Assembly (NCBI GenBank): GCA_001599915.1
Contig: BCIG01000002.1
Location: 930,001 to 994,000 of the forward strand
Direction: 5' to 3'
Length of the DNA: 64,000 nucleotides
DNA from: Symbiotaphrina buchneri
Lineage: Eukaryota; Ascomycota; Symbiotaphrinales; Symbiotaphrinaceae
This document shows, piece after piece, positions 45,592 through 62,633 of the stretch. The notes under the pieces are model-generated. The model was not told where the DNA came from and ran no database searches. It saw only the letters and a list, made by a program, of their open reading frames with translations. A program made the position numbers and the translations under genes. The first letter of the stretch is position 1. Each line of letters opens with the position of its first letter.

Positions 45592-47572
45592 CTAGAAGAT
45601 GCCCACAACAGGCGGGCCTTCATATCTCTTCATCACCACCAACCACCAGCACCCGACGATGATAGTCAAGCCGCCCACAATCAGACAACTATAATTCATG
45701 CTGGCGGCATCGACAGGCATGGCATACGGGAAGCAGAAGATGACGACAAAGACCGCAATATACGCGCAGCTGACGGCATTGACGACGAAGCCCAGCGCGC
45801 CCTTCATGAAGAACGGGCCGGGGACGACGCTCTTGCGGCCGGACATCAGGAAGGGGAAGATGGATGCAAAGTACGAGAACGTGGTCAGGATGACGAAGGA
45901 ACCGATGAAGGCGTTGAACGCCGTCGAGCTGCCGAGATAGATGCAGCCCATGACGGTCATGAAGCACCCGACGAAGAGCGCGGCGTTGAACGGGTTGCCC
46001 CACCGGTTGCTGACGTGGCCGAAGGTGCCGGAGAAGGGCACGGCGCCGTCGCGCGCGAGCGTCCAGAAGGTCCGCGACGCGGTCAGCGTGGCGCCGATGA
46101 CGGTGCAGAAGATGGGGAAGAGGATCACGATGAGTAGTCCGAGTGAGCCGCCCCGTGAGCCCGTTGCTTGCTGGTAGATGGTCGCGAGAGGGAAGGTCGT
46201 GATGCTGCTGTTGAAGACGGAGTCGAGGTCGTTGATGCTGTAGAAGAGCGCGATCAGGTAGCAGAAGGCGGTTAGGAAGTCGATGACCATCTGCGCGCAG
46301 AGGGCCTTGGGGACGTTGATCGCGGGCCTGGAAGCGAATGTTAGTCTGATGTCCAGAAGAAGGTGGTTTGTAAAGATGGGGACAAGGGTGCGGACCGTGG
46401 GATTTCCTCTGCAAGATGCGATGTTACGTCCGGCGTGCCAATAGCGTACGCGCCATTCAACATGCCCGCAACAAACACGAATCCATTACTACCCCATCCC
46501 GTCTCATTATCCCAGTCCCTCCAGACGAAATCATCGCTTGCATATTTCGACTCGTTCTTACTCGGCATGATGGCGAGGACCAAGACAGTGACGAACCAGC
46601 CTCCCAGCACAAACAGCAGGCCCGTGTTGTTGAGCATCGGCAGCAGCCGGTTTCCGAACATGATGACCGCCGTCGCAATCCAGCACATGATCAGGTACGC
46701 CACGAAGACGTGCCAGCGCTGCGGCGAGAAGTCTGGGTGGAACAGAGAGTACATGGCCACGGTAATGTTGCCGACGATGGCGCACATGGAGCACGCTCCG
46801 AAACACCAGGCGAACATGTTCCAGTAGCCTGCGAAGAAACCGATGGGCCGGCCCCAGCGTTTGCCGGGTGTGACGGACGCCCAGTGGTAGACTATGAGCG
46901 GTTAGTCGTGGTCTGGAACTGAACCACAAGGAAGAGGGGAAATGGCAGGAGGTGAGGAAATGGTTCTGATGTAATGGGAATGGTCTTACCTCCGGCAGCG
47001 GATGGAATAGCTGATGCCAGCTCGCCGATTGAGGCAGCGACAAAGAAGTAGAAGAGAGACACGGCAATGCTGATAGAGATCAGCATGTAATCCCTAAGCT
47101 CATGGACCGGCCAGAACTCACAGCTCATATATAGCACCAGGTGGGCCACCGTTGTAGACTTGGATATCCAGTTAGTAACCTTCTCATGGAGTCCGGTGTG
47201 GAACATACCATACTTGCAACAACCTGGACACAGTTAGTGTATATCCTCGAAGGGTGACAAGATATTCCTTACAATGCTACCACCGATTGCCGCCCAGGTA
47301 TTGCCAGTCACGATGCCGACGGCACACATACTCAGCAAGCTGAATTGCTTGTCCAATTCGTGCACGTGTCCACTGGCATTGCTGTGGATCCACAAAGTCA
47401 GCTCTGTTGGCATAGTAGATGAAGAAAGATCCAAAGCTTACATGATCTGACCATTTTCCAGCACATCAAGAACATCACCGTCCTTTGATATCCTCCGACT
47501 ACCCCTCCGCTCTTGAGGAAGGCCATCCTCAGGGGGTACGGACATCGCGGTCTGTTTCTCTGGCTCTGCCAT
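45592..47572 (-). CDS. APC-superfamily permease, choline/GABA (Hnm1/Uga4) type
   Basis: Plasma-membrane proton symporter of the amino acid/choline family, 532 aa with about 12 spans. Seven exons: 47572-47442, 47381-47273, 47223-47214, 47158-47122, 47069-46990, 46891-46396, 46327-45592. Family landmarks: the hydrophilic leader with GHVHELDKQFSLLSM, IYNGGPPGAIYEL, ASIGELASAIPSAAG, VYHWASVTPGKRWG, FAGYWNMFAW, and EEIPRPAINVPKAL. Exon 3 is just 10 bases; without it the frame between GGSI and YNGGPP cannot be kept, and both flanking introns have CTAAC branch sites. Likely substrates are choline, GABA or related amines, not decided by sequence. It is divergent from the SDR-deacetylase fusion gene, suggesting possible co-regulation. 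Confidence 0.88.
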
Positions 47573-48668
47573 CTGTATGCAAATGACAAGCAGAGGGGGA
47601 TATCACGAAAGAATTCAACAAGAAATGATATGTGTACAGGGGTCTGACGACAAATAACAATATATGCACCTAGTAAACAGACAGCGGAAAAAGCATCGAT
47701 CGGTCGTTCAAGGGGTCCAGGGCTGCATTAAATAAAAGCGATGCCAAATGACAAGAACAATCTCGCCTCCATCTCACCCTCATACGATCAGCGGCGTCTG
47801 CTCCGTCTATAATAAGTTTATGTCCTTGATCGTGCTGGACCAATCTCAAAGACATCCACTTATCACCAATTCCAGACTCTGGGAACGCCGTCCCGCCATG
47901 TGCAGAGGTTCCTTCGGCCGCACCATTCCCCGAACGGCATGGGTAGGCTCTCAACCATGGCGCTGTCATCCAGGCGATAAGCGATAAGAGCAATCTCGAC
48001 CGACGCTGACCTATCACGGCTGCCAGATAGACGGAGTTCCCCTAGCTAGTTTGGGAAAGTTGAGGAGGAGACTTTTCACCCCCTTCTCGACTTCAAGCCG
48101 GCGGGAAGCCTTGGTGGACCGTGCTTCTCGTCCGGTACCGCGCACCGATCCCGCTGGCCTGTCATTGACAGCCTGGATCGGAAGTCTGCCACGCGAAATT
48201 GAAGCTGCGTCGGGGAAGGTCGATGTTGAAACATTTCAATAGGGTAACAAGAGCCGCTATACTCCACAGCTTCCAGGCGCGCGCACCCTTAGCTCGTGAT
48301 AGCTGACACCGCCCATTTATGTAATGTTGCGCAGAAGCACTACCAAGCTTCACGCGGTATGGGGTAGCATCACCGAACCGCCGAGGGCCGTGATGCTTGC
48401 CCGTAATTCGATTTAAGCATCCAAGGAAATAGTCCTATAGTCTGAAGGATATTGGTGGACTGGATATATTCCGCATTGATCGCTGTGTGACTTGGAGCAA
48501 CCCCACCGGGTCAGCAAGCAATCATTAACAGCGGATGACCCATCTGCCTGGTGTACAGGAATAGAAGAAGCTTGACCTACTAAAGTGAGCGAGAAGCTCC
48601 TTGCACTGCTCTGTATCTTCATATCACGGACACCGTTCCATTCACAGGCGATTCCTAGGGTTGCGGAC
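47573..48668. promoter_or_regulatory. Divergent promoter of permease and SDR-deacetylase fusion
   Basis: 1.1 kb between two divergent start codons. No credible coding frame, RNA or repeat seen. Both promoters must lie here. Confidence 0.45.
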
Positions 48669-50979
48669 ATGTCGTCGACGTCATTCTTAGGGTTAGAAGG
48701 TTACCATGTTTTGGTGACAGGCGCTGCGGGGGGCATCGGCAGCGAGGTAGCGAAGGAGTTTTTGAGTACGCCGAACATCAATCTCCTATTTTCCATACCG
48801 AAAGAAATTGACGCAGCACACTCCTCTGCATACACATTGTTAACAGGTTTCAGACCAGGGGTGCAAAGTTACCGGGCTTGACCTACGTTCCTCCACATCA
48901 CCGTCCCAATCTTCCTCCTCAAATTACCACTCCGTTCAAGGGGACATCTCCGACGAGTCGTCAATTGCCGCTGCAATTGCAGATGCCGTTGCCCACTTGG
49001 GCCCCATCAATATACTGTGCGCCAATGCGGGCATCACGGACGAAAGCAACGAGTACCCACTATGGGATATGCCCGCCGAGTTATGGGATCGCACTTACAA
49101 AGTCAATGTGCGGGGGACGTTCCTGACCATCAAACATTTCCTCAAAGCAGCGGAGAAGATACAGAAAGAGTCGGGCAAGGAATTAGAGAATCTGGCCGTG
49201 GTCGTCACGGGTATGTGAAGTGCTTGTAGAATGGACCGATTGCCGCAAAGCTGATCGCTGTAGGCTCCGAGTGTGGGAAGTTTGGCCAAGCCGGCCATGC
49301 GGAGTATGCTTCTGGTAAAGCCGGTCTACAGTATGGATTGGTGCGGACCGTCAAGAATGAGATTGTCAAGTTGAATGGCAGGGCCCGCGTCAATGCTGTT
49401 GCGCCAGGCTGGGTCAATACGGGGCTCATTGAGGAGAGACTAGATGATCCGAAGGAGATGTGGGCAGAAGCCCAAGCTACGTAAGTTCCTGCCTTCAGAC
49501 ACTCAGAATTCCCATAGGAGCACGTTGTGTCTTCCTGACATCTTCCTTTGACCGGAATCTCTAGTATATCGCTATTTGGATTCGTTCTGACGGAGTTTAT
49601 ATCAGTGTCCCACTCCGCAAGATCGCTGAACCCCAGGATGTCGCACGTCTTGCTGCTTTCCTTGCGTCTCATCGGGCTGCGGGTCATATTAGCGGCGAAT
49701 GTGTCAGCGTCGACGGAGGAATGGAAGGTCGTCTGATATGGAAATCTCCAGAAGAAGCCGCCTCAAGCTCCCTTACGAGTGGGTTTTCGACGCGACCAGA
49801 CAAGCCTGCATCTACGGATACTTCTGCAACCCCCGCTGCTGCTGGCTCTGCATCAGCACCCTCTTCTGGTATTGCTGTACCCAAGCCTCTCATGCATATT
49901 GCACTGTCCGTCGATTTCGACGCCGTGTCCGGCTGGCTGGGCACTGGGACACATCCGGAGAACAACATGGCGGATTATAGTACTGGTTTCTTCTCCGGTG
50001 AAGTCGGTGTGCCGCGGCTGTTGAGGCTGTTCAAGAAGCTGGGAATCCAGAAGGATGTCACATGGTTCATTCCAGGGCATAGTATGGATAGCTTCCCTGA
50101 AATGACCGAGAAGGTGGTTAAGAGTGGAGCGGAGATTGGGTTGCATGGTTACTGTCACGAGGTCAGTATTTTCTACAGTAACATATCGAAGGAGCCGAGG
50201 CTGAGTATTACCATCTGTCCAGGGCTCGGAGCAATTAACGGCGGAGCAAGAACACGATGTGATTGTGAGGTGCATTGATCTGGCACAGGGGTTCACTGGC
50301 AAGCGTCCTGTGGGATATCGTGCTCCATTGTACCATATTCGCGAGAGCACGATCTCAGTCTTGGAGAAATATGGGTTCGAGTATGGTATGTTCGCGCTCA
50401 CAATCCCTCCTCACTCGTTAAGCCTCAGCTCATACTGTGCTGATAGACTCTTCCCTAACACACCATGACTCTCTCCCCTACCATATCCCCCATCGCCCAG
50501 CCATGCAGCCCCTGGACTTCAGCCAACCCGCCGAAAGCTGGATGCGCCCCGTGCCCAAGCCAGAGTCTCACTCCTCCATCGTCGAGATCCCCGCGAATTG
50601 GTATGGCGAGGACATGACCCCGCTACAATTCTGGCCGCATACCAGCAACTCGCAAGGCTACGTGCCGACGTCCGCGGTGGAGAACATGTGGCGGGAACGC
50701 TACGATTGGGTCATGAGGGATGCACAGGAGCGGTATGAAGAGGCCGTGGAAGAAGCCGAGAGTGAGGGTAAGGCAGACGCGTTGGAGAAGTGTCAGAAGG
50801 AGGTCCTGGTATTCCCGATCATCCTCCATCCGGACACGAGCGGTATGGCGCATGTCATCCCGATGATCGAGAGGGTGGTGAGATGGCTCCTTGAGGAGGT
50901 TAAGGCGGGTAGAGCGGTGTTCATGACGTATACGGATATTACGAGGAAGTGGACGGGGCTGAACAATGGTAGTTCGTGA
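48669..50979 (+). CDS. Fusion of short-chain dehydrogenase/reductase and NodB (HpPgdA-like) deacetylase
   Basis: Six exons (48669-48765, 48854-49210, 49264-49480, 49606-50161, 50223-50385, 50447-50979) encode 640 aa. Residues 1-268 are a complete classical SDR: TGAAGGIG at 17-24, CANAG, catalytic Tyr166 and Lys170 in YASGK, PG-x-V-x-TG, and the end motif SVDGGMEGRLIW. A 45-residue Ala/Ser/Pro/Thr linker follows. Residues 318-640 are a complete carbohydrate-esterase-4 fold: Asp327 and Asp329 in SVDFD, His404 and His408 in LHGYCHE, Arg442 in GYRAP, and His591 in LHP, all metal or catalytic positions. The style matches the HpPgdA/PuuE branch, some of whose members act on ureides or cyclic imides rather than chitin. 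Both halves share exon 4, so the join is not a modelling artefact. No signal peptide, so cytosolic. Substrate unknown. Confidence 0.88.
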
Positions 50980-51606
50980 GAAGGATGGAACCGAGAGTAT
51001 GGAACTAGATAGCAATTCCCCATGAACTGCAGAGGAGGAATGAATACACCTTGTGAGGGGCCAAAAAAAGTAAACTCTATCCACTCGAGTGTTAAAGGAA
51101 CATGTTGTAAAATAAAACAAAGTTCAGCGTCTAAGCGCTGTATCATATATATGGACTAGGGGTGGAAAAGAATATCGCGGAGAAGTTGGTTCAGGCGGCC
51201 AAGGGGGGATCGGCAAAAAGGGGCACGGAGATACCTCCTGTTCCGCCTATGGCTGCTAGCCGGTCGCTGAACTTGCCTCGCATTCAACATTATGCCCATG
51301 CTCCTTAACTGTCAGTCATATCCTTCACCGACCCAATACTATCAAGGAGGTTCAAATACAGGGCGTAGACATAATCCATGTGCAATCCCCAAATTCTAGA
51401 GCAATCATGGCAAGTGAATATGGCGACGCATACATCACTACTTGTGTCACTCCCATGACGGGCACCTTGCGTCATCGTAAGAGCTCCATTGAGTTCAACC
51501 TGCTTTGACCCAAAATTCGAGCTTGCACCACCACTCTCTCAGCTGTCAACTATCTTCTCCCGCATCTTTCATCTCTACCCAAATTACCTTGACCGCTCCA
51601 GCAAAA
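50980..51606. other. Intergenic
   Basis: Spacer between the fusion gene and the dihydrodiol dehydrogenase-like gene, same strand. The last 90 bases before ATG 51607 are pyrimidine-rich. Nothing else recognised. Confidence 0.4.
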
Positions 51607-52964
51607 ATGGCGCTCGTCATTCAAGCCTACACTTTTGCCTACCAATACACCAACTCGCTCTTACATTCAGTCCCCAAGAAGAACCCAGGTGCCATCAAGC
51701 TAGGCATCCTCTCATCTGCTCAAATCAACCCAGCAGCAGGTAAGGCATTCTAGATCCCTGCCCTTTGAAATATACAGTTGACGGAAGCGCTCCCAGCAAT
51801 CCATCCCGCAGAGACACATCCTGATGTTATCCTGTACGGCGTCGCCTCCCGCGACCTCTCGACGGCACAGACCACAGCAAAGAAATATAAGATCCAAAAG
51901 GCATATGGCTCGTACCAGGACCTGCTCGACGACCCACAGATCGATATGGTGTACATCTCGACGCCGAACGGGATGCACTACGAGTGGGCTTCGAAGGCGC
52001 TGAAGGCAGGGAAGCATGTTTTGCTGGAGAAGCCGTTCACGAGCAATGCGACCGAGGCGAAGAATCTAGTTGAGGAGTCCAAACACAGTGGCAAGATTTT
52101 GATGGAGGCGGTAAGTTCTAGAGCGACCGCATGCGTGGGAGATGCTAATAAAAGTGCAGTTTCACTGGCAGTTTCATCCTGCTGCGCATTTGTGGAGAGA
52201 GATTCTCGAGTCGGGGAAATATGGCAAGATCATTCAGACGAATGCAGTAATGACGGCTAGCCCAGGAGTGCCTGATGGAGACATTCGTTGGCAATACGAT
52301 CTAGCAGGTAAGTAGAAAGTCCGAATACACTGTGAATGTTTGAGGATACCCATTGAACTCTCGAATAGGTGGCTCAGCTATGGATGCAACGTACGCTCTT
52401 TCCTTCACACGCTATGCTCTCCGTGCCGGTCTTCCAGAGAAGATTCTGTCCTCTGTGGCACGTCCCTATGACAAAGACAAGCGCGTCGACGCAGCCATGC
52501 ACAGCATCATGCTGTTCAAGACCGCCAGCGGCGACATTGTGCATAGCCGTGTATACACCGACCTTGCACGCAGCTGGGTCGGGTACGTCATTCCACGTGT
52601 CTGGGAACTGCCTCAGATCGAAGTCGAGACCGAAAAGGCCGTCATCTACTTCTACAACGCCATGATGCCGCACCTGTACCACTACATCTCCATCACCGAC
52701 AAAGCGACCGGCAAGACTGAGTACAAGAAACAATACTCTGGCGGCCCGGTCTGGGGCAACGTCATGACCACCGGAGGAAAAGGCGGCCAGAGCTACTGGA
52801 GCACGTATCGGTACCAGCTGGAGGCTTTCGTCAAGAAGATCAAGGGCGAGGAACCGCCCTGCTGGGTCGAGGGACAAGAGAGTATCTGGCAGATGGAGAC
52901 GATTGATGCCATGTATGAGGCTGCGGGGCTGCCGGTGAGGCCCACCAGTCAGTACGCTAAGTGA
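51607..52964 (+). CDS. Gfo/Idh/MocA oxidoreductase, dihydrodiol/D-xylose dehydrogenase-like
   Basis: NAD(P)-dependent dehydrogenase of sugars or trans-dihydrodiols. Exons 51607-51739, 51797-52110, 52160-52307 and 52369-52964 encode 396 aa. The Rossmann part has LGILSSAQINPAA, VASRD and YISTPNGMHYEWA; the family LLEKPFTSN motif with the catalytic Lys is intact, and FHWQFHPAAH follows. A C-terminal alpha/beta domain completes the fold. The second exon starts at the CAG acceptor before IHPAETHPD, because an earlier possible AG gives a wrong frame. The fungal group is annotated as D-xylose 1-dehydrogenase or trans-1,2-dihydrobenzene-1,2-diol dehydrogenase. It lies between the fusion gene and a P450. 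Confidence 0.9.
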
Positions 52965-53209
52965 GTCCTTGAGCTATGAGTGATGAACGGTGGGAAAAGA
53001 AACAAGTTAGCCTAGCAACAATGATGGTATATGGTCATGACCTCTTAACGGTCGTGAGCATTCGGCGTTTTCAACTCAAGCCAAAGAAATGATTCAAGTT
53101 ATATCACTTCTTGTAAATAAATCCGACTGTTTAAGTAGGTTTTTTTTTCTCCTATTGGAATATGCCAGTGATCGACCGCTATAATCAAGGTAGCAATCCA
53201 ATGAAGACA

Positions 53210-54857
53210 TTACTTTGAAATGACAGCTCGCTTCTTGATCCGGATCGGCAGCGGACCAGGATTAGAATTGAAGCGCTCATGGATCTCCAGTTCCTGATCC
53301 GGGCGCTCCAGTTCCATATCGTACTTGCGAACAAGAGTGGAGATGAGGATGTGTAACTCCACAACAGCAATGTGTCTTCCCAAACACGTCCTTGCCCCCT
53401 GACTGAAAGGGATGTTGTACGCCTTCAGGTTGTGAATCTGATCAGGATCGTCCTGATTCAGCCAACGATCAGGATTGAAGCGGTCCGGTTCGGGATACAG
53501 ACTCTCTTTGCGGTGGATCGCGAACGTTGGCACGGCCACGACGGTCCCTTGTCGAAGATGATGGCCGGCAACTACTGCTCCTTCTGGTGCGTAGACCACA
53601 CGCTGTAGTGGATATGCGATTGGTGGTCTTAGCCGCAAGGTCTCGTTGATACATGCTCCAAGGTATGGAAGATTATTGACGAGATCGTACGGGACGATTT
53701 CCGGATCATCTGGCGATACGTGCGATTCCACCTCACGGCGTAGCTTCTCGAGACATTCTTTGTTAGCCATCAGATGATAGACTGTGCTTGAAAGTGCCGC
53801 GGCAGTGGTGTCGCTACCTGCGTTCATGAATACGATCGAATCGGCGACCATCTCCATGAACGGAAGGTTTCGACCCTCCCCATTTCGGTCAGCGAGGATG
53901 TTATTGACGAAGTCTTTCGATTGTCTCTCAGGTGCAGCCTTGGCCATGCGCCGCCGAAGCTGGTGTATACAAATATTCTCAAAATCGTCTGCATATCTCG
54001 CTTTCGTCAATCGCTGCAGCTGAGACGTGCACTTGGTGACTATCTTCAACCAGTCCATCGTCTGCAGAGATACGACTTGAGCAAGAGTAATGGTGTATCT
54101 CACTCCTTGTTGTAGAGCATAGATCGTGCTGGGCACCGTATAAACAGTGCCTGACTTCGTCTCGGCTGTTTTCATGTCATTTCCGTTGTCGAGAAAGCCC
54201 ATCGGGAGGCCAAATGCCATATCACCGATAACGTCGAGAGTGAAGTAATTAAGCCTGGAATGGAGATATATCAGTCTCTAGCACTAGCATTCGGCGTCTC
54301 CAACCTTACCATTGTCGGATGTTGAACGAGGATGGCTCTCTTTCAGAGGTGGATTCCCTGTCACACCACTCATCTACTCGAGCCAGAAACTTCGCAGCAT
54401 TCCGTCTGATCACAGGCTCCATGTCCACCACAGTCTTCAACGCAAATGAGTTTGCAAGATACTTTCTCTTCCGAGAATGATCTGCACGATCACGAGTGTT
54501 GACGATATCATGGAAGTCGCCTGCAACCTTATCATAGAACCTATCCTTCATAATCTTCGAGGCAGCTTGGTGGCTGTAAATGTCGGCGACTGCTCGAGGA
54601 TCGTTGAACAGGAGAAGATTCGGACCAAAGCGGACGACATCTCCTAGTTCTTTGTGGACTTGATGGATTGTGGCGGATCGCCGTTCGTTCCATGTCTCCC
54701 ACATCAACCACAGCGGGGTGATTGCTGCCAATTTACTAGGGGTTGGGTATTTTCGCAGGTCGAGCGGATCATAGAAGTACCAGAGAATGGGCCATAAAAC
54801 AAAGTAACCCAAGAGGACGACGACGACAGCGAGAATGGCCGCTCCTATCGATAACAT
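53210..54857 (-). CDS. Cytochrome P450 monooxygenase
   Basis: Exons 54857-54310 and 54254-53210 encode 530 aa. A single N-terminal membrane anchor (about residues 5-30) is followed by a Pro-containing hinge (KYPTPSKLAA). The I-helix AGSDTT, the K-helix ETLR and the heme loop FSQGARTCLGRH, with Cys473 as axial ligand, are all intact. The WLNYFTLDVIGDMAFG block is common to fungal P450s of the benzoate 4-hydroxylase and pisatin demethylase-like groups, so an aromatic or polyketide-like substrate is plausible but not shown. ATG 54857 is used; the frame runs a few codons further without ATG. Convergent with the dehydrogenase gene and divergent from a decayed regulator. Confidence 0.93.
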
Positions 54858-55341
54858 GATAGTTGCTTCTGGACAATCAATCACGATATTCTTCTGGTAG
54901 AGTATAGATCAGTTTTACCACCGGGTAGCACCAGGTGTAAACGTCGGACATCCTGATTGCCTTATAATCCGACTGAACCAGTCTAGAACAACCTCTTCGC
55001 AAGCTGATATCGTCCGTAGCAGCAGGCCTTACTCCGCGATTCTCATAGAGCGCAAAACTACCTGTTCAAGCTCAACCAAGACTTCGACCACCAAGTCTCA
55101 AACCTAGAAACAGGTCGGTTCGATCGGGGTGCCTTGCAGTCCGCGCAAATTTCCCTCTTCGAGCTAAGCGTGGAGATCTTCCCCGGACGGTCTGTGAACG
55201 GACTTCTGCTAGCAAGAAAGGCAAACTAGCAACCCCGCATGTCTCGCGCTCTTTAATGCGGAGTGATGTTTGCAAAACATCTTCCACACTCACTGATTGT
55301 CTCGCGCGGAATTGCTGAGATAGGCAATCGCGTTTCTGCGG
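54858..55341. promoter_or_regulatory. Divergent promoter of P450 and Zn2Cys6 remnant
   Basis: 484 bases between the P450 start and the regulator's probable start at 55342. No gene or clear motif recognised. Confidence 0.4.
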
Positions 55342-57643
55342 ATGGGTCATTACAAGGGTGAAGCGTCATGGTTGGTCGATCCGCTTTGAATCATGAGCTC
55401 AATCGTTGGAATGGTGGCTGACTAGCGTAGTCGAACCTGTCGTCGACGACATATGAAATGTGATGAAAGAGTTCCTGTGTGTGGCAATTGCGAGAAATCT
55501 GATCGAGATTGCGTACGACGCCCCCGTATCCGCTTTCGTCCAGTGAAGAACTCTTTCGCCGTTGCTTCTCCCACTGAAGAGGGTGATCGGGCTCCTACGG
55601 GTAGAAGAAGCCCTGGAAGTGTAGTGGAAAGTGCTCGGGGTATTACGTCCTCTCCAGGTCTGAGAAGTCGGAACCGTCTTGGTTTAAAATGCATTGTCCG
55701 ATTGCTAACACATGAATAGTCGTAGGGCCATATCTATCACCAGCTTCCACGGCCCTGAGCATTCACTTGGCCAGTAATGGAAGGGAATCACTACCTTTAC
55801 CTATCCAGGAACACAGAATCAAACCTCATCCCCGAAATATCCCTATCCAGGGACATTCGGTTTAGGACAACCTCCTAGCCAAGGCAGTTTATCCAGCATA
55901 TCAGCAGATATATTATCCGATACCCACCCTGAACCACATCAAACAAATGCAGAATATTCAGCACTGGACATAGGCCACGTCGATCCAGTATTTGGCACTT
56001 TCATCACCAGTCCACCAGAGCTTGATGCTTTTAACACTCGCTTGGTCGACGATATAATATCCGATCCAGCCTTCTACAGGATCAACGACATACAAGAAAC
56101 CCACCCCTAGATTGAATGATGTCCCGACGAGCATCAAACTACGTAAGCCTGAAGCGGGGCTTCTCAAGTACTTTGTCCAGATGCTCGCACCGCTTTTTGA
56201 TTGCACCGACGCTCGGCGGCACTTCTCTACCGCTGTTCCAGACCTGGCGCTTTCCCGCTCGCCATGTTTACTCTACGCCATGCTGACCATAGCGGCCCTA
56301 TTCTTCGGTCGCGTATGCAATCAGCCTTCATCTGCCGCAGAGCAGTACCGAAGAGAATGCGTCAAGGCCTTGATTTTCCTGCTTGCCGAAGATGGGAATA
56401 ATGCTCACGAAGCAGCCATTTTCACGACTTATGTCCTGCTTCGGCTCTATGATCATTATACTGGTACGAGCTCCACTTAATTATCTGGGCCCCCAAATGC
56501 TTACCTAGGGATAGTGACAATCCTGGAACAGAAGCCGGAAAGCTTATTCTCGGCGTCACTGGCCCTGTCCACTCGCCCATGGAGCGCATATTCCCGCGAC
56601 ACAGCTCTGAAGCAAGCGGCATTCTGGGTCCACGTCCGTCAAGACCTGCACGTAGCTTTTCTGCTGCAGTGTCCGGTGAACATCGATGGAGCTCTATACA
56701 CTCACACGCTAGAGGTGGCAACAGCGATGACCGAGCAGGATGCACTGACAAGATGAAGATGAGTTGCCCGAGATCACAATTCTGTACCTGCTAAGATGTT
56801 GTTTGAATTACCTACTTATATAGGGGATGAACGCATTAATAAGTAAACACCTGCAGTAACCATTGGCTCGAGCAGTGGCCCGATTTCGCGCGAAGGGGTT
56901 GGCCTTGAAGAACACATGTCTCCCGATATTGATTGTGCCTGGAGCAACCGAATGGTGGCGCTGACATGCGATGTGGTCAATTACTGCTTTAGACAAGCTG
57001 GTAGGACGGAGGATGAGTGGACATCGCTCCTTTTGGAAGTGATGAGATGGAACCTGAGGAAACCTTCGTCCTTCGAGCCTTATTGAGCTGGAGCCGGGGC
57101 ACAAAGATGGAAGTGTCTTTCCAGAACCATGGTTGAGGCATGATTGGCACGGTAAGGGTCCGCAGTCCGATGTCTATGGAGAGGTATGCTGATCATCAAA
57201 GCTCTGGGGCTCATCTATTATCACATGGCGTTCGTACATCTGAAGAGCCACAAGCCAGGCCAGGTAGCGGCACAAGACCGGTTGAAATCGTTGCCTTATG
57301 ATTGTAGAGTAAGTTGCTCATTGGGCAGGCCGTGACACATTCTATATTTTTCTGACGTCTATACAGGAAGAGATCTTCTTCCACGTCCGCAGTCTGTGTG
57401 GGATTGTACTGGCCAACCCTGGGATGCAAGTCTTGATGATTGTCCCGGCCATGGTATGTCCGGCTATCCTTAGGAATAACAAGCTGACGATTATAGCTTC
57501 ACTTTGCGGGTATGTTCTTAACAGATACAAATTCCCAGGAGAAAACCGTGCAATTGTTACACATGGCGAGAGAACGTACTGGTGCTCCAGTACAACACGT
57601 TTTGGATCGACTTCATAAGACATGGGAAAGACCACTCTCATAG
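55342..57643 (+). pseudogene. Decayed Zn2Cys6 fungal transcription factor
   Basis: A fungal C6 regulator is spread across several frames. The DNA-binding cluster is whole if exon 1 (55342-55370) is joined to 55431: C-x2-C-x6-C-x6-C-x2-C-x6-C (CRTC, RRRHMKC, VPVC, GNC, RDC). After an intron at 55658-55719 the frame shifts at least twice before 56112: one lies near 55,790-55,860 and one at a C4 run about 56,104-56,107. The regulatory domain is then clear (LLKYFVQMLAPLFD, KQAAFWVHVRQDL, CAWSNRMVALTCDVV, FPEPWLRHDWH, FFHVRSLCGI, TVQLLHMARERTGA), but another shift falls near 57,075-57,095. Introns explain some joins, not all. Either a true pseudogene or a low-quality stretch. Confidence 0.75.
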
Positions 57644-58636
57644 CAATAATTTTCCCATGCAATACATATCAGCAACGGCAACCGTCGACTGGTCAATGGG
57701 CCATTGTAACATCATTCTGCCTGATAGACCATTGCCCATCAACACTTGCTACGGTCTCAACACCAGTCTGCCTTCTTCAGAGAGTTTCTCCATCACAGGA
57801 TCCTAGTCAAATTCCTGTCCCAAACCGGCTTTCAAGACGATATTCTTGAGCTTCTGTGATAATCCTGTACAAATGAAGAAGTGAGTGAGAGTTCATTCAA
57901 CAATTGAGCCACGAAGCCAGAATTAGAGATTTTAGAGCTGTCAATCGAATTGAAGTTCATGGACTAGTTTGATCATTGGTTGAAGTTGACATTGCTCGAA
58001 ACACCTGAGCCATCATCCATCGCTCGAGAAATCAGTGGGAGTTCAGTGATATCTAGCATTAAGGGAATCCTAGTCGGATAGCGCCATGCCAAGAAGATGA
58101 TTGTGTCCTCGTGAGCACCGTAAGATCGCAACTCCTCGCTGATTGCCTTCGCCACAGAACGTTGCGGCTTAAAGCAAGGAATAGGTTCCGAACTAGCTGT
58201 CAACCCCGCAGCTCTCGGCCAAAAACGCTTATGTTGGAGAAGTGAACTCCATTGGACGTAGCATTTGTCGTCCAGGGACCGCCAACCTCCTAACCGCCCC
58301 TAGTAAATCCGCGCTGCCGAGATCCGGCCGGCGACAATCCTTCCCCTTTTCATACCCCTTATGCTACTCCCGATCCAGCAATTTTGCACGCGAAGCTTGG
58401 ACTAAACCCCGCAAATGCCCCCGGGTGCGCGCTCTCTTGGCCTAACCAGAGACATCATCTCACGTAGGCTAGAATCCGGGGTTTGAGCGCCGGGGTAAGA
58501 ACTATAAAGTGGACGTGTGTGGCCGGGGTTGTCACGATGGAAGATCCACATCAAACGGTCTTTGGCCATCGCAACTCTTTACAACGGAGTAAAACAAGGC
58601 GAGATAAGGGCAAATTGTACCTCCGTTCAAATCAAG
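57644..58636. other. Intergenic
   Basis: About 1 kb between the regulator remnant and the sugar transporter. A minus-strand open stretch at 57973-58203 lacks an ATG and is not recognised. The 150 bases before 58637 are the transporter's 5' region. No repeat element seen. Confidence 0.4.
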
Positions 58637-60484
58637 ATGGGCAAGAAGTTCTACTGGGGCCGCGGCAAGACGCTGCAGGTGTGCATCACGATTACTTGTT
58701 TGATGGGTGAGTGTTGTCACATGCAGATGCTGATAACATATACTGACGCAGCTTGTCTAGCTTTCACCCTGATGGGTAATTGTTTTCTAGACTCCTCTAT
58801 ATAGAAGAAGCTGAGAGTCGTATAGGTTATGATCAAGGCGTCTTCAGTTCGGTCGTCACCAACCAGGACTTCCTTGATAAGATCGGCAACCCGAACGATG
58901 TGTTGCTCGGTATTGTCGTCGCATCTTATAACCTGGGATGCTTCTCAGGCTCCATCTTCTCCTTTGCGTTCGCGGAAAAGCTAGGTCGGCGTAAGAGTAT
59001 GTGGGTTGCAATGGTTTTCATCAATGTAAGCACATATTCCAGCCCGTCGAAGAATACCCTGTTGACCTCCCATCAGATCCGTGCCGCACTCCAAGCTTCG
59101 GCATATACCCGCGCGCACCTCGTCGTTGGGCGGTACATATGTGGAATCGGCACCGGGATCGAGACATCTACCGTTCCCGTTTACCAATCAGAGCTGTCCT
59201 ATGCCAAATCTCGCGGGCGCCTAGTCAGCACCGAGGCGTTCTTCTCGGGCGTGGGAATAGCTATTGCGTACTGGTTCGACTATGGCATGACCTACGCCCA
59301 CGGCCCGGTGTCATGGCGACTGCCCATTGCGTGCCAAATCATCCTTGCAATGGTGAGCGATCCGCATCCCCTGCCCAGGGCCATCCACTAACTGTCTAGT
59401 TCACTGTCGTCATGGTCTTTGGCGTGCCCGAGTCCCCCCGATATCTGTACAAAGAGGGCCGTAACCAGCAAGCCCTCGAAGTCCTCTGCGCCGTCTGGGA
59501 CAAGGAGCCCGATGACCTAGAGATCCTCAAAGAGCAGGCCGAGATCCTGGAGGCGCTGCGGCTGGAGATGGAGCATGGCGAGTACAAGTGGCGGAACGTG
59601 CTGCAGCCGGACCGTGTACATACACGCAAACGCCTGCTGCTCTCGTGGCTAATAAACAGCATGAACCAACTTGTGGGCATCAATCTGGTTGTGTACTATG
59701 TGCCAACTGTGCTGCACACGAATGTGGGCTTGTCTTCGAGTCTGTCGCAGCGCTTGGGAGGAATGTAGGCTGCTTCCTTCCGGCAGGAGTATTTGGATAC
59801 TGACTTTTGGCTCGCAGCATTCAGTGTATGTTCGTGCTAGGGGCGGTATTGCCATGCTTTCTGGCGGATAAGTACGGTCGACGAAACCCGATGATGTGGG
59901 GATGTGCGGGCATGAGCTTCTCGATGATGATGATCACCATTCTCCTGAGTCTCAAGGACAAACTTGCAAACCCGAAGCCTACATCAACAGCATGCATAGC
60001 GTTCTTCTTCATCGTGCGTCGCCTATTCCCCCGTGTCAAACCACAAACACTAACCCCCCTCAAGTTCATGCTCGTCTTCGGCGCCTCCGCCAGCTGCATA
60101 ACTTGGGTTTACGGGCCAGAGATCCTGCCCCTGCACGCACGCGCCAAGGGCAACGCGTTGGGCGTATCTGGCGTGTGGATCTGGAACCTTTTCATTGTCA
60201 TGATCACACCGGTGCTGATCAATCGGCTGCAGTGGAAGACGTATGTCATATTCACGCTGCTGAACTTCGTCTTCGTCCCGACCATCTATTTCTGGTTCCC
60301 GGAAACGACGAACTTGTCGTTGGAGGAGATTGATTGGATCTTCACGCAGGGGAAGAGTACCGTACGTGCTGCTAGGGAGCTGCAGAAGATTAGGAAGGAG
60401 AAGGGAACTGTTATCGGGGTTGGAGAGAGGTCGCCTAGGGTTAGTGTCTTGGAGGTGGATGCGGAGGAGAAGACGTCTAGGTAA
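58637..60484 (+). CDS. MFS sugar-porter family transporter
   Basis: Twelve-span proton-coupled sugar or polyol transporter, 516 aa. Seven exons: 58637-58706, 58752-58775, 58826-59025, 59077-59352, 59400-59764, 59818-60013, 60065-60484. Family signatures are all present: GYDQGVFSSVV, KLGRRKSMW, VGRYICGIGTG, PESPRYLYKEGR, the INSMNQLVGINLVVYYVP block of span 7, DKYGRRNPM, YGPEILP-x-x-x-RAKG and PETTNLSLEEID. Exon 2 is only 24 bases, needed to link MACLAFTLM to GYDQG. ATG 58637 opens the usual short cytosolic leader. Specificity (hexose, xylose, quinate or other) cannot be read off. It sits in the metabolic stretch beside oxidoreductase genes. Confidence 0.92.
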
Positions 60485-60503
60485 AGGTGGGAAAGTTTGT
60501 AAA

Positions 60504-60543
60504 AGCACTTGGAGCTTTAAATCAGCACTTGGAGCTTTAAATC
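60504..60543 (+). repeat. 20-base perfect tandem duplication
   Basis: The unit starting AGCACTTGGAGC occurs twice head to tail, 20 bases after the transporter stop codon. Exact identity implies a recent event or slippage. Confidence 0.85.
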
Positions 60544-61168
60544 ACGAGTTGTGGATCATGGCTGGAGTCACGAAAGATAAGGTGCCGCCATGGAACGAGG
60601 ATATCCAATCTGTGGCCCCTGTAATGCCTCAAGAACGCTGCATATGTGTATACTGGATTATTCAACCTGCTTGAGAAGGGGCTAAAAACCTTCCAAAGTT
60701 CTACAGCCGAAGAACCTGTCTTTCGGAGATTTTACACAGGGGTCCGATGCTACGTTCCATATAGCCCCTTGGTTTCATGGCGCGAGCAGCCACTAATATG
60801 TCCGCCACTGAATGTAATCTTGTAGAAACACTCCTAAACAACATATGCTAAGGAAATCCTAGAAGAAACCTGGTAGTCTAGGCAAGACAGAGTGGGTTTC
60901 CCGCCCGCTGAATTTGCCAGAATGACTTAAGGCTATGCTGACAGGCCACCTAGTGCTGACGGTCAACGTTCCACCTGGTGGAACCCTCCCGTTTCGTGCT
61001 TACGCTGACATGTACTTCCCCGTCGCGTGCGTAGAATTGAATTAATTGGCCGAGATACCTGGAAATGGACCTTTCGGGCTTTGAACGTTCTGTAGACATG
61101 GGTAGGCGAGGCCAGCCTCATGCTACCGGCTTATGAGGCTCTCGATGGGGGCTATCAGAGCTGAAACC

Positions 61169-61192
61169 GTAACAAAGGGAGTAACAAAGGGA
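61169..61192 (+). repeat. 12-base perfect tandem duplication
   Basis: GTAACAAAGGGA twice, followed by a partial third start GTAA, about 135 bases ahead of the GS-like ATG. Confidence 0.8.
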
Positions 61193-61325
61193 GTAAGCGG
61201 TAGGGATCAGAGCAAGATATATAATCAGAAAGCGCCCTTCTTCTAGGAAAGTGGACAAGTCCATAGCTTTGCACCATTGAACCTCCGTCACATCGTGCAG
61301 CCAGAAAGGGGCCAAAACCCACACC

Positions 61326-62633
61326 ATGGCCGATCCTGTTCCCTCCAACAACCTCGCCCTCCTCAAAACTTTCCTGTCCGCCAACCCCGACATCCACTAC
61401 GTCCGCTACCAATGGCTGGACCTAGCCGGGAACCTGCGGGCGCGTGTCACGACGCGGAAGCACATGCTGAACGTCGTGCAGATGGGAAAAAGCTTCGACA
61501 CACCTTCACCCATGATGGCGTTCATGTTCGACGACAACGGGCCCTTCGATCTAGTCACGAACCACAGGGACGGTTTCGTCCCAGACATGTCTTCCCTGCG
61601 CGCCTGCACCTACCAGCCTGGCAGCGCCACCGTCATGTGCCACTACCGCTTCGAGAAGACGACATGGGACTGCTGCCCACGGGCGCTGCTGAAGCGCACC
61701 CTCGAGCGCGCCAAACGCGCGCATGGCATCGACATGCTCGTCGGCTTCGAAATCGAGTTCCTATTCCTCGATCCGGCGCAGGACGCGCCGTCGCCGCTGA
61801 AGCTCCCGCATAACGGCACGTCGACGACGCATCTGCTGCGCGGGCCGCGCTACGACGTCGTCGAGGAGACGGTGCGCCAGATCGAGGAGGCTGGCATTGA
61901 GGTCCGCCAGTTCCACGCCGAGATGACCGGCGCCGGGTATGAGATCTCGCTGGCGCCCATGCCGCTGCTGGAGGGTGTGGATGCGCTGCTCTATGCGCTC
62001 GAGACGCTACGGAGTGTGTCCGAGGCCAGGGGACAGCGCGTGACGCTGCATCCGGCGGCCATCAAGGCGGGGCCGGCGATCGGGCAGCATGCACATCTGT
62101 CGATTGCCCCCGCTGACAAGTCAGATGCGTTCCTGTCGGGCATGTTGAAGCGGTTGCCGGCGCTGATGGCGTTGAGCATGCCCATCTATGACAGCTACAC
62201 GCGGGTCGGCAAGGGGTTTGGTGAGTGGTTGTGCTGGGGCCTGGAGAATAAGTTTGCTCCAATTAGGAAGATCAAAACGGGCCATTGGGAGGTGCGGACT
62301 ATCGATGCGGCCGCGAATATGTATCTTGCGTTAAGCGGCTTCATTCATGCGGGGCTGATGGGGGTTGAGGAAGACATGGAGTTGAAGATCAAGGACACCC
62401 CTTTCAACTATACGGGATTGACGGAGGAGCAGCGGAAGGACAGTAATGTGGACACGAAATTGCCAAAGGCTATGAAGGAGACGTTGGCGGCACTAAAGGA
62501 TGACAAGCCCTTGACGGATCGGTTGGGAGAGAAGATGATGGAGTTCCTCTTGGGAATCAAGAAGAGAGAAGAAGAGAGATGGGCGGCCATGGAACCCGAT
62601 GAGCGCAGAAATGTCGGCATACAGGTGTGGTAG
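61326..62633 (+). CDS. Glutamine-synthetase-like (GS I/FluG-C-like) ligase
   Basis: Single-exon 435 aa protein of the glutamine synthetase superfamily. The beta-Grasp N-terminal part (HYVRYQWLDLAGNLRARV) precedes the catalytic domain with metal-binding GFEIEFLF, the HAEMTGAGYEISLAP loop, GQHAHLS with the ATP/metal His, and HWEVRTIDAAANMYLALSG, which fits the R-x-D/N-A-N-x-YL end motif. It is shorter than GS III and lacks the amidohydrolase half of FluG. Such fungal GS-like enzymes probably ligate amines other than ammonia, for example gamma-glutamylation of polyamines or anilines, but this is unproven. A TATA-like box lies upstream. Third positions are strongly GC-rich to about 62,200. Confidence 0.9.
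   Translation: MADPVPSNNLALLKTFLSANPDIHYVRYQWLDLAGNLRARVTTRKHMLNVVQMGKSFDTPSPMMAFMFDDNGPFDLVTNHRDGFVPDMSSLRACTYQPGSATVMCHYRFEKTTWDCCPRALLKRTLERAKRAHGIDMLVGFEIEFLFLDPAQDAPSPLKLPHNGTSTTHLLRGPRYDVVEETVRQIEEAGIEVRQFHAEMTGAGYEISLAPMPLLEGVDALLYALETLRSVSEARGQRVTLHPAAIKAGPAIGQHAHLSIAPADKSDAFLSGMLKRLPALMALSMPIYDSYTRVGKGFGEWLCWGLENKFAPIRKIKTGHWEVRTIDAAANMYLALSGFIHAGLMGVEEDMELKIKDTPFNYTGLTEEQRKDSNVDTKLPKAMKETLAALKDDKPLTDRLGEKMMEFLLGIKKREEERWAAMEPDERRNVGIQVW

Follow-up and report, generated by a model that had tools for sequence, protein, structure and literature searches.

The closest described systems are the HxnW/HxnM enzyme pair of Aspergillus nidulans and the structurally characterized hydrolase HpPgdA (HP0310). 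In the nicotinate pathway of this fungus (PMC9304392), the short-chain dehydrogenase (SDR) HxnW acts on 5,6-dihydroxypiperidine-2-one, and its oxidation product, the cyclic imide 3-hydroxypiperidine-2,6-dione, builds up in an hxnM deletion. From the deletion and metabolite data it was proposed that HxnM, which resembles HpPgdA, opens this ring, with HxnN salvaging the nitrogen thereafter. According to a further study (PMC8478523), hxnW and hxnM form a divergent couple that is kept across several classes of the Pezizomycotina but not in Aspergillus, and HxnM paralogues, presumably unrelated to nicotinate, occur in all dikarya investigated. HpPgdA is a stand-alone homotetramer with metal ligands D14, H86 and H90 and with D12 and H247 near water; it lacks an accessible polysaccharide groove and showed no activity on typical polysaccharides, and a small-molecule substrate was proposed for it (PMC3084791).

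The window, by which we mean the whole stretch of 64 000 nucleotides of Symbiotaphrina buchneri DNA that was analysed, comes from an assembly of 23.4 Mb and includes a gene that likewise specifies an SDR and then an HpPgdA-like hydrolase of the NodB type. In A. nidulans these are two separate proteins, acting on a small nitrogen ring, whereas in the window they form one fused chain.

Gene structure and domain layout

The features discussed below are as follows.

45595-46901, opposite strand: amino-acid permease, upstream of the fusion
48669..50979, + strand: whole SDR-NodB gene, six exons, 640 aa (GT...AG splice model; fused full-length relatives)
48669..48765, + strand: exon 1, SDR start with the nucleotide motif TGAAGGIG (splice model)
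48854..49210, + strand: exon 2, SDR middle with N117 (splice model)
49264..49480, + strand: exon 3, SDR active site with S153, Y166 and K170 (splice model)
49606..50161, + strand: exon 4, from the end of the SDR across the linker into the NodB domain as far as H404 and H408 (splice model)
49742..49897, + strand: Ser/Ala/Pro-rich linker, residues about 270-321 (alignment with 113 relatives; low pLDDT in the P0001 model)
50223..50385, + strand: exon 5, NodB motif GYRAPLY with R442 (splice model)
50447..50979, + strand: exon 6, NodB C-terminus with H591 and stop (splice model)

Joining the six exons at GT...AG sites gives a single frame of 640 aa, in which Pfam recognized adh_short_C2 at residues 18-263 (E 7e-41) and Polysacc_deac_1 at residues 359-463 (E 4e-13). 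A classical SDR occupies residues 1-268 and the NodB domain extends from about residue 321 to 640. Exon 4 is open without a stop from the C-terminus of the SDR through the linker to H408 and this, together with the fused relatives found in many genomes, rules out that the two domains belong to different genes or were joined by a frame error. Chance or a local annotation error is also ruled out, as the best 120 of 931 matches share 52-62 % identity over 88-99 % of the query. Hence, the initial annotation, which had placed both domains in one frame with the linker inside a single exon, was borne out by the splice model, the Pfam matches and the fused relatives.

Across 113 relatives, the linker varies from 20 to 73 residues (median 40) and is poorly kept, with a mean majority-residue fraction of 0.42. 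The corresponding fraction in the domain blocks is at least 0.69, with the exception of a short variable stretch at residues 561-585 (0.46), and the best-conserved block of the entire protein is formed by residues 181-268 of the SDR. In a structure model of the relative P0001 (mean pLDDT 75.7, pTM 0.51), pLDDT falls below 50 in linker residues 280-319 and in other stretches, one of which (residues 150-176) surrounds the active site of the SDR, and the model says nothing firm about the mutual arrangement of the two halves. The SDR begins directly at the N-terminus, with no targeting or signal sequence apparent on inspection or from a crude hydrophobicity score, and we presume the protein to be cytosolic.

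The SDR half

The TGxxxGxG nucleotide motif of classical SDRs is present as TGAAGGIG (residues 17-24), and the Asn-Ser-Tyr-Lys tetrad is complete (N117, S153, Y166 and K170). As this half resembles many SDRs about equally, FabG-type enzymes among them, and as all 25 NCBIfam models listed for it fell short of their cut-offs, its substrate cannot be read from the sequence. Gox2181 (3awd), listed in PMC8478523 among the closest structural homologues of HxnW, was found at rank 50 of the fold matches to the P0001 model, behind many other SDRs. The same genome also includes a standalone SDR (contig C2:293118-296876) that shares 43 % identity with the SDR half of the fusion and is adjoined by a frame that, by inspection, was labelled 2-oxoglutarate-dioxygenase-like.

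The NodB half and its relationship to HpPgdA and HxnM

All six NodB residues, D327, D329, H404, H408, R442 and H591, are present and, like Y166 and K170 in the SDR half, were found where the initial annotation had put them. By motif, D14, H86, H90, D12 and H247 of HpPgdA correspond to D329, H404, H408, D327 and H591, respectively, so the Asp, Asp, His, His, His set is common to both proteins, and the fused NodB would be expected to hold a metal. HpPgdA (3qbu) was the first match among solved structures (E 2.8e-64), followed by 3rxz (2e-22) and PuuE (1e-10), and a Foldseek search with the P0001 model again placed 3qbu first, with a TM score of 0.85 over the target, ahead of 3rxz and PuuE-type chains. 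PuuE was, therefore, discarded as the closest relative of this half (1e-10 versus 3e-64 for HpPgdA). The earlier suggestion that such proteins act on small molecules rather than sugar polymers gained support from the finding that HpPgdA is the nearest structure and from the assignment of HxnM, based on deletion and metabolite data (PMC9304392), as a cyclic imidase acting right after an SDR. Klebsiella plasmids also carry NodB homologues (H24-H28) that share 39 % identity with the NodB half of the fusion.

A second NodB gene in this genome, on contig C10, encodes an HxnM-like protein with a far stronger match to HpPgdA (E 9e-117). An amidase adjoins it and frames matching FAD_binding_3 lie on both sides, and the locus (L053:368-8769) probably belongs to an hxn cluster for nicotinate breakdown; no SDR was recognized in the interval separating the HxnM-like gene from the following gene, either by eye or in a search of this genome for SDRs. 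The fused NodB shares 41 % identity with this C10 protein, which was used as a stand-in for HxnM. Motif 3, which reads GYRAPLY in the window protein and GYVAPWW in the aligned HpPgdA, has the Val form in both HpPgdA and the C10 protein, though the use of this Val as a marker for HxnM is our own choice and was derived from these two sequences. In a tree of 41 NodB rows, 23 fungal fused-type rows, made up of 14 fused to an SDR, eight standalone and one fused to DUF1989, fall into one clade (support 100/99); three of the eight standalone rows (P0154, P0186 and P0209) have no NCBI source and may be cut models. The C10 protein lies on the prokaryote side of this tree in a weakly supported group (88/34). 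Given the separate clade, the low identity and the different motif 3, the possibility that the fused NodB is HxnM itself was rejected.

Distribution of the fusion

Three homology searches returned 931, 1416 and 7138 matches, the best 120 of each being considered; the search with 1416 matches was limited to proteins of up to about 577 aa, which favours short forms with a dead SDR. Both PF01522 and PF13561 are present in 120/120 of the best of the 931 matches. Names among the listed matches span fungi that we take to belong to the Dothideomycetes, Eurotiomycetes, Leotiomycetes and Lecanoromycetes, as well as Geoglossum, and the architecture is widespread among ascomycetes.

The same architecture is found in entries that the database calls 'SDR family oxidoreductase/polysaccharide deacetylase family protein' (P0071, P0077 and others), which are 56-58 % identical over 95 %; the names of such fungal entries look automatic. 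Other names among the listed matches are polysaccharide or peptidoglycan deacetylase and glucose 1-dehydrogenase, and the sole listed row with 'bifunctional' in its name, P0220, does not have the SDR Tyr. A literature search on the SDR-NodB architecture, the gene set, its function and DUF1989, covering mainly open-access papers, brought up no description of the fusion among the papers listed, and neither 'fusion' nor 'fused' appears in the main text of PMC8478523. Hence, the statement of the initial annotation that no described enzyme of this architecture was known stands in so far as no characterizing paper was found, but many ascomycetes have the architecture, and it has already been named automatically. 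The fusion is real and well conserved and, as far as the literature search reached, uncharacterized. Many of the fungal entries may be misnamed, as the evidence favours small-molecule nitrogen catabolism over a role with polysaccharides.

Loss of the SDR tyrosine and exchange of partners

A set of 151 two-domain rows was assembled from the window protein and those of 356 returned proteins that covered >70 % of both halves, near-identical copies from A. fumigatus included. The six NodB residues are invariant (151/151), whereas the SDR Tyr, kept in 129 rows including the window protein, is absent in 22, and the Lys is also absent in 10. Eleven of the 22 Tyr-less rows have a gap at the aligned column, and most of them have a shorter active-site stretch, making calls from a single column uncertain there; the Rossmann glycine motif is still present in many. 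An NCBI source is available for 19 of the 22 but not for P0180, P0204 and P0208, and the gene models may be cut. Rows with a Tyr-less SDR and an intact NodB include P0178, P0181, P0189, P0190, P0195, P0196, P0198, P0201, P0210, P0216, P0218, P0223 and others, and the hosts of such fusions are Penicillium, Aspergillus, Malbranchea and a lichen fungus. When the rows were thinned to 134 (107 with an intact SDR, 26 with a dead one and one with DUF1989) and placed in a tree, loss of the Tyr required eight changes by parsimony, and at least three of these are forced by well-supported branches; for the 26 dead rows a laxer coverage cut-off was used and P0192 was admitted by name, and support is SH-aLRT only. 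Judged by their residues, both halves of the window protein look active. Forms in which the SDR is dead pose directly the question of which half bears the function.

The NodB domain has also been joined to other partners. On contig C29 of this genome (L052:4448-6203), a NodB that belongs to the clade of the window NodB and is 53 % identical to it is fused to DUF1989, two parts of which match in two frames and resemble urea amidolyase-associated protein models, below the cut-offs of those models. Just upstream of this fusion is a gene that matches TRI12 and MFS_1 and resembles a transporter. In Cercospora kikuchii, the SDR and NodB halves are encoded by two genes whose locus tags follow one another and whose contigs have the same length; as both the NodB tree and the SDR tree place them beside the fused relative P0118, gene fission is suggested.

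Prokaryotic gene clusters

A tblastn search of plasmid records found 328 with a match, and a single-sequence scan of genome contigs yielded only six distant loci. Sixteen prokaryotic regions, neither random nor independent, were chosen from the top matches for spread, with two SDR-centred regions left uncounted. One or two SDR genes lie near the NodB gene in 12 of the 16, as a raw count; the regions without one are L028, L029, L035 and L049, and in the unannotated region L048 the SDR genes were found by phmmer. Among the 15 annotated regions, an amidase or asparaginase was present in 10 and a CobW-type or other GTP-binding protein in 11. A Variovorax region (L028) has DUF1989, NodB and amidase genes in place of the SDR arrangement. 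Identity between the cluster NodBs and the C10 HxnM-like protein is 58-67 % (46 % for the archaeal one), and motif 3 has Val in 14 of the 16, Asn in L028 and Arg in L050. These SDR/NodB/CobW-type GTPase/amidase clusters, many with an amidase and a transporter, show the same enzyme pairing as the fusion but, unlike it, have the SDR and NodB as separate genes.

The SDR tree, which covers part of SDR diversity and has weak deep branches and many long ones, places the cluster SDRs in two clades (99/98 and 100/99) with the fungal SDR half outside both. The fungal half instead pairs with a Paracoccus SDR (100/99), and no NodB gene was found within 7 kb on either side of the latter. Inheritance of the pair from prokaryotic clusters was rejected on this basis, and the pairing of an SDR with an HpPgdA-type NodB probably arose more than once, as judged from the trees. 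Because their SDRs belong to other clades, the prokaryotic clusters back the chemistry considered below by analogy only.

Possible function of the fused protein

By analogy with HxnW and HxnM, we tentatively favour the possibility that the protein is a bifunctional cytosolic enzyme that carries out two successive steps on a small nitrogen ring. The N-terminal SDR would use NAD(P)+ to form a carbonyl by oxidizing a hydroxyl beside the ring nitrogen (as in a carbinol-lactam or similar compound), the metal-dependent C-terminal NodB would open the cyclic imide or amide so made, and an amidase encoded elsewhere would then free ammonia; the substrate would be a nitrogen-containing small molecule other than that of HxnW/HxnM. 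This two-step reading is favoured by the complete residue sets of both active sites, by the proximity of the NodB half to HpPgdA with its proposed small-molecule substrate, by the HxnW to HxnM precedent and the conservation of the hxnW/hxnM couple in the Pezizomycotina, by the SDR and amidase or asparaginase genes in the prokaryotic regions, and by the adjacent locus tags of the two halves in C. kikuchii. Against it are the limited identity to the C10 HxnM-like protein and the differing motif 3, the operon SDRs being of other clades and so offering an analogy rather than an inherited pair, the failure of any listed NCBIfam model to reach its cut-off for the SDR, the poor P0001 model at the SDR active site, and the finding of no amidase among the 18 window frames scanned. 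The initial annotation had proposed that one metabolite undergoes a redox step and the hydrolysis of a ring or amide and, though HxnW/HxnM provide a two-protein precedent, the strict coupling that it implied is doubtful in species where the SDR Tyr has been lost and the NodB residues kept.

The loss of Tyr and the existence of standalone and DUF1989-fused members in the window's NodB clade, which argue against tight coupling, are also what would be expected if the NodB were the working enzyme and the SDR a replaceable accessory, whether dehydrogenase, NAD-binding regulator or assembly scaffold. This is the main rival and is further favoured by the number of changes that the Tyr loss requires on the thinned tree, but the retention of Tyr in the window protein and in most of its relatives, and the position of SDR residues 181-268 as the most conserved block, make it rather unlikely. 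The DUF1989 fusion in this genome, together with the DUF1989 gene adjoining NodB and amidase genes in Variovorax, the resemblance to urea amidolyase-associated proteins and the weaker relationship to the allantoinase PuuE, could instead point to a ureide or guanidino pathway (allantoin-, hydantoin- or carboxyguanidine-like) in which DUF1989 and SDR are alternative partners for different inputs. We consider this improbable, as the similarity to PuuE is far weaker than that to HpPgdA and no ureide gene was recognized in the 18 window frames scanned. An amino-sugar enzyme, in which the SDR oxidizes an N-acetylated sugar that the NodB half deacetylates, is quite improbable. De-N-acetylases are numerous among NodB-fold enzymes, N-acylmannosamine dehydrogenase (4cr6-4cr8) is among the many SDR matches, and R442 is kept in motif 3, where an Arg is typical of CE4 sugar deacetylases; but HpPgdA, 3rxz and PuuE rank ahead of sugar deacetylases among the closest structures, the match of the SDR to that dehydrogenase is no better than its match to FabG-type enzymes, and HpPgdA showed no activity on typical polysaccharides (PMC3084791).

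Returning to the two-step nitrogen-ring enzyme, a broader version, which we regard as unlikely, is that the fusion represents a widespread ascomycete route of nitrogen-ring salvage, in which one protein oxidizes the carbinol and its own hydrolase takes the imide, and that in some moulds the SDR is now a dead NAD-binding, perhaps regulatory, module. If a natural SDR-imidase fusion is indeed involved, the substrate of this orphan NodB clade could be found via a single intermediate piling up after deletion of one gene.

Genes around the fusion

Upstream of the fusion, seven GATA sites are found at 47000-48668, where 3.5 are expected, but only one is within 500 bases of the start, making this a weak signal. 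Downstream of the fusion are a GFO/IDH/MocA oxidoreductase, a P450, a transcription-factor fragment, a sugar transporter and a glutamine-synthetase-like frame. The genes around the fusion, from the permease onwards (45595-62630), are possibly catabolic neighbours.
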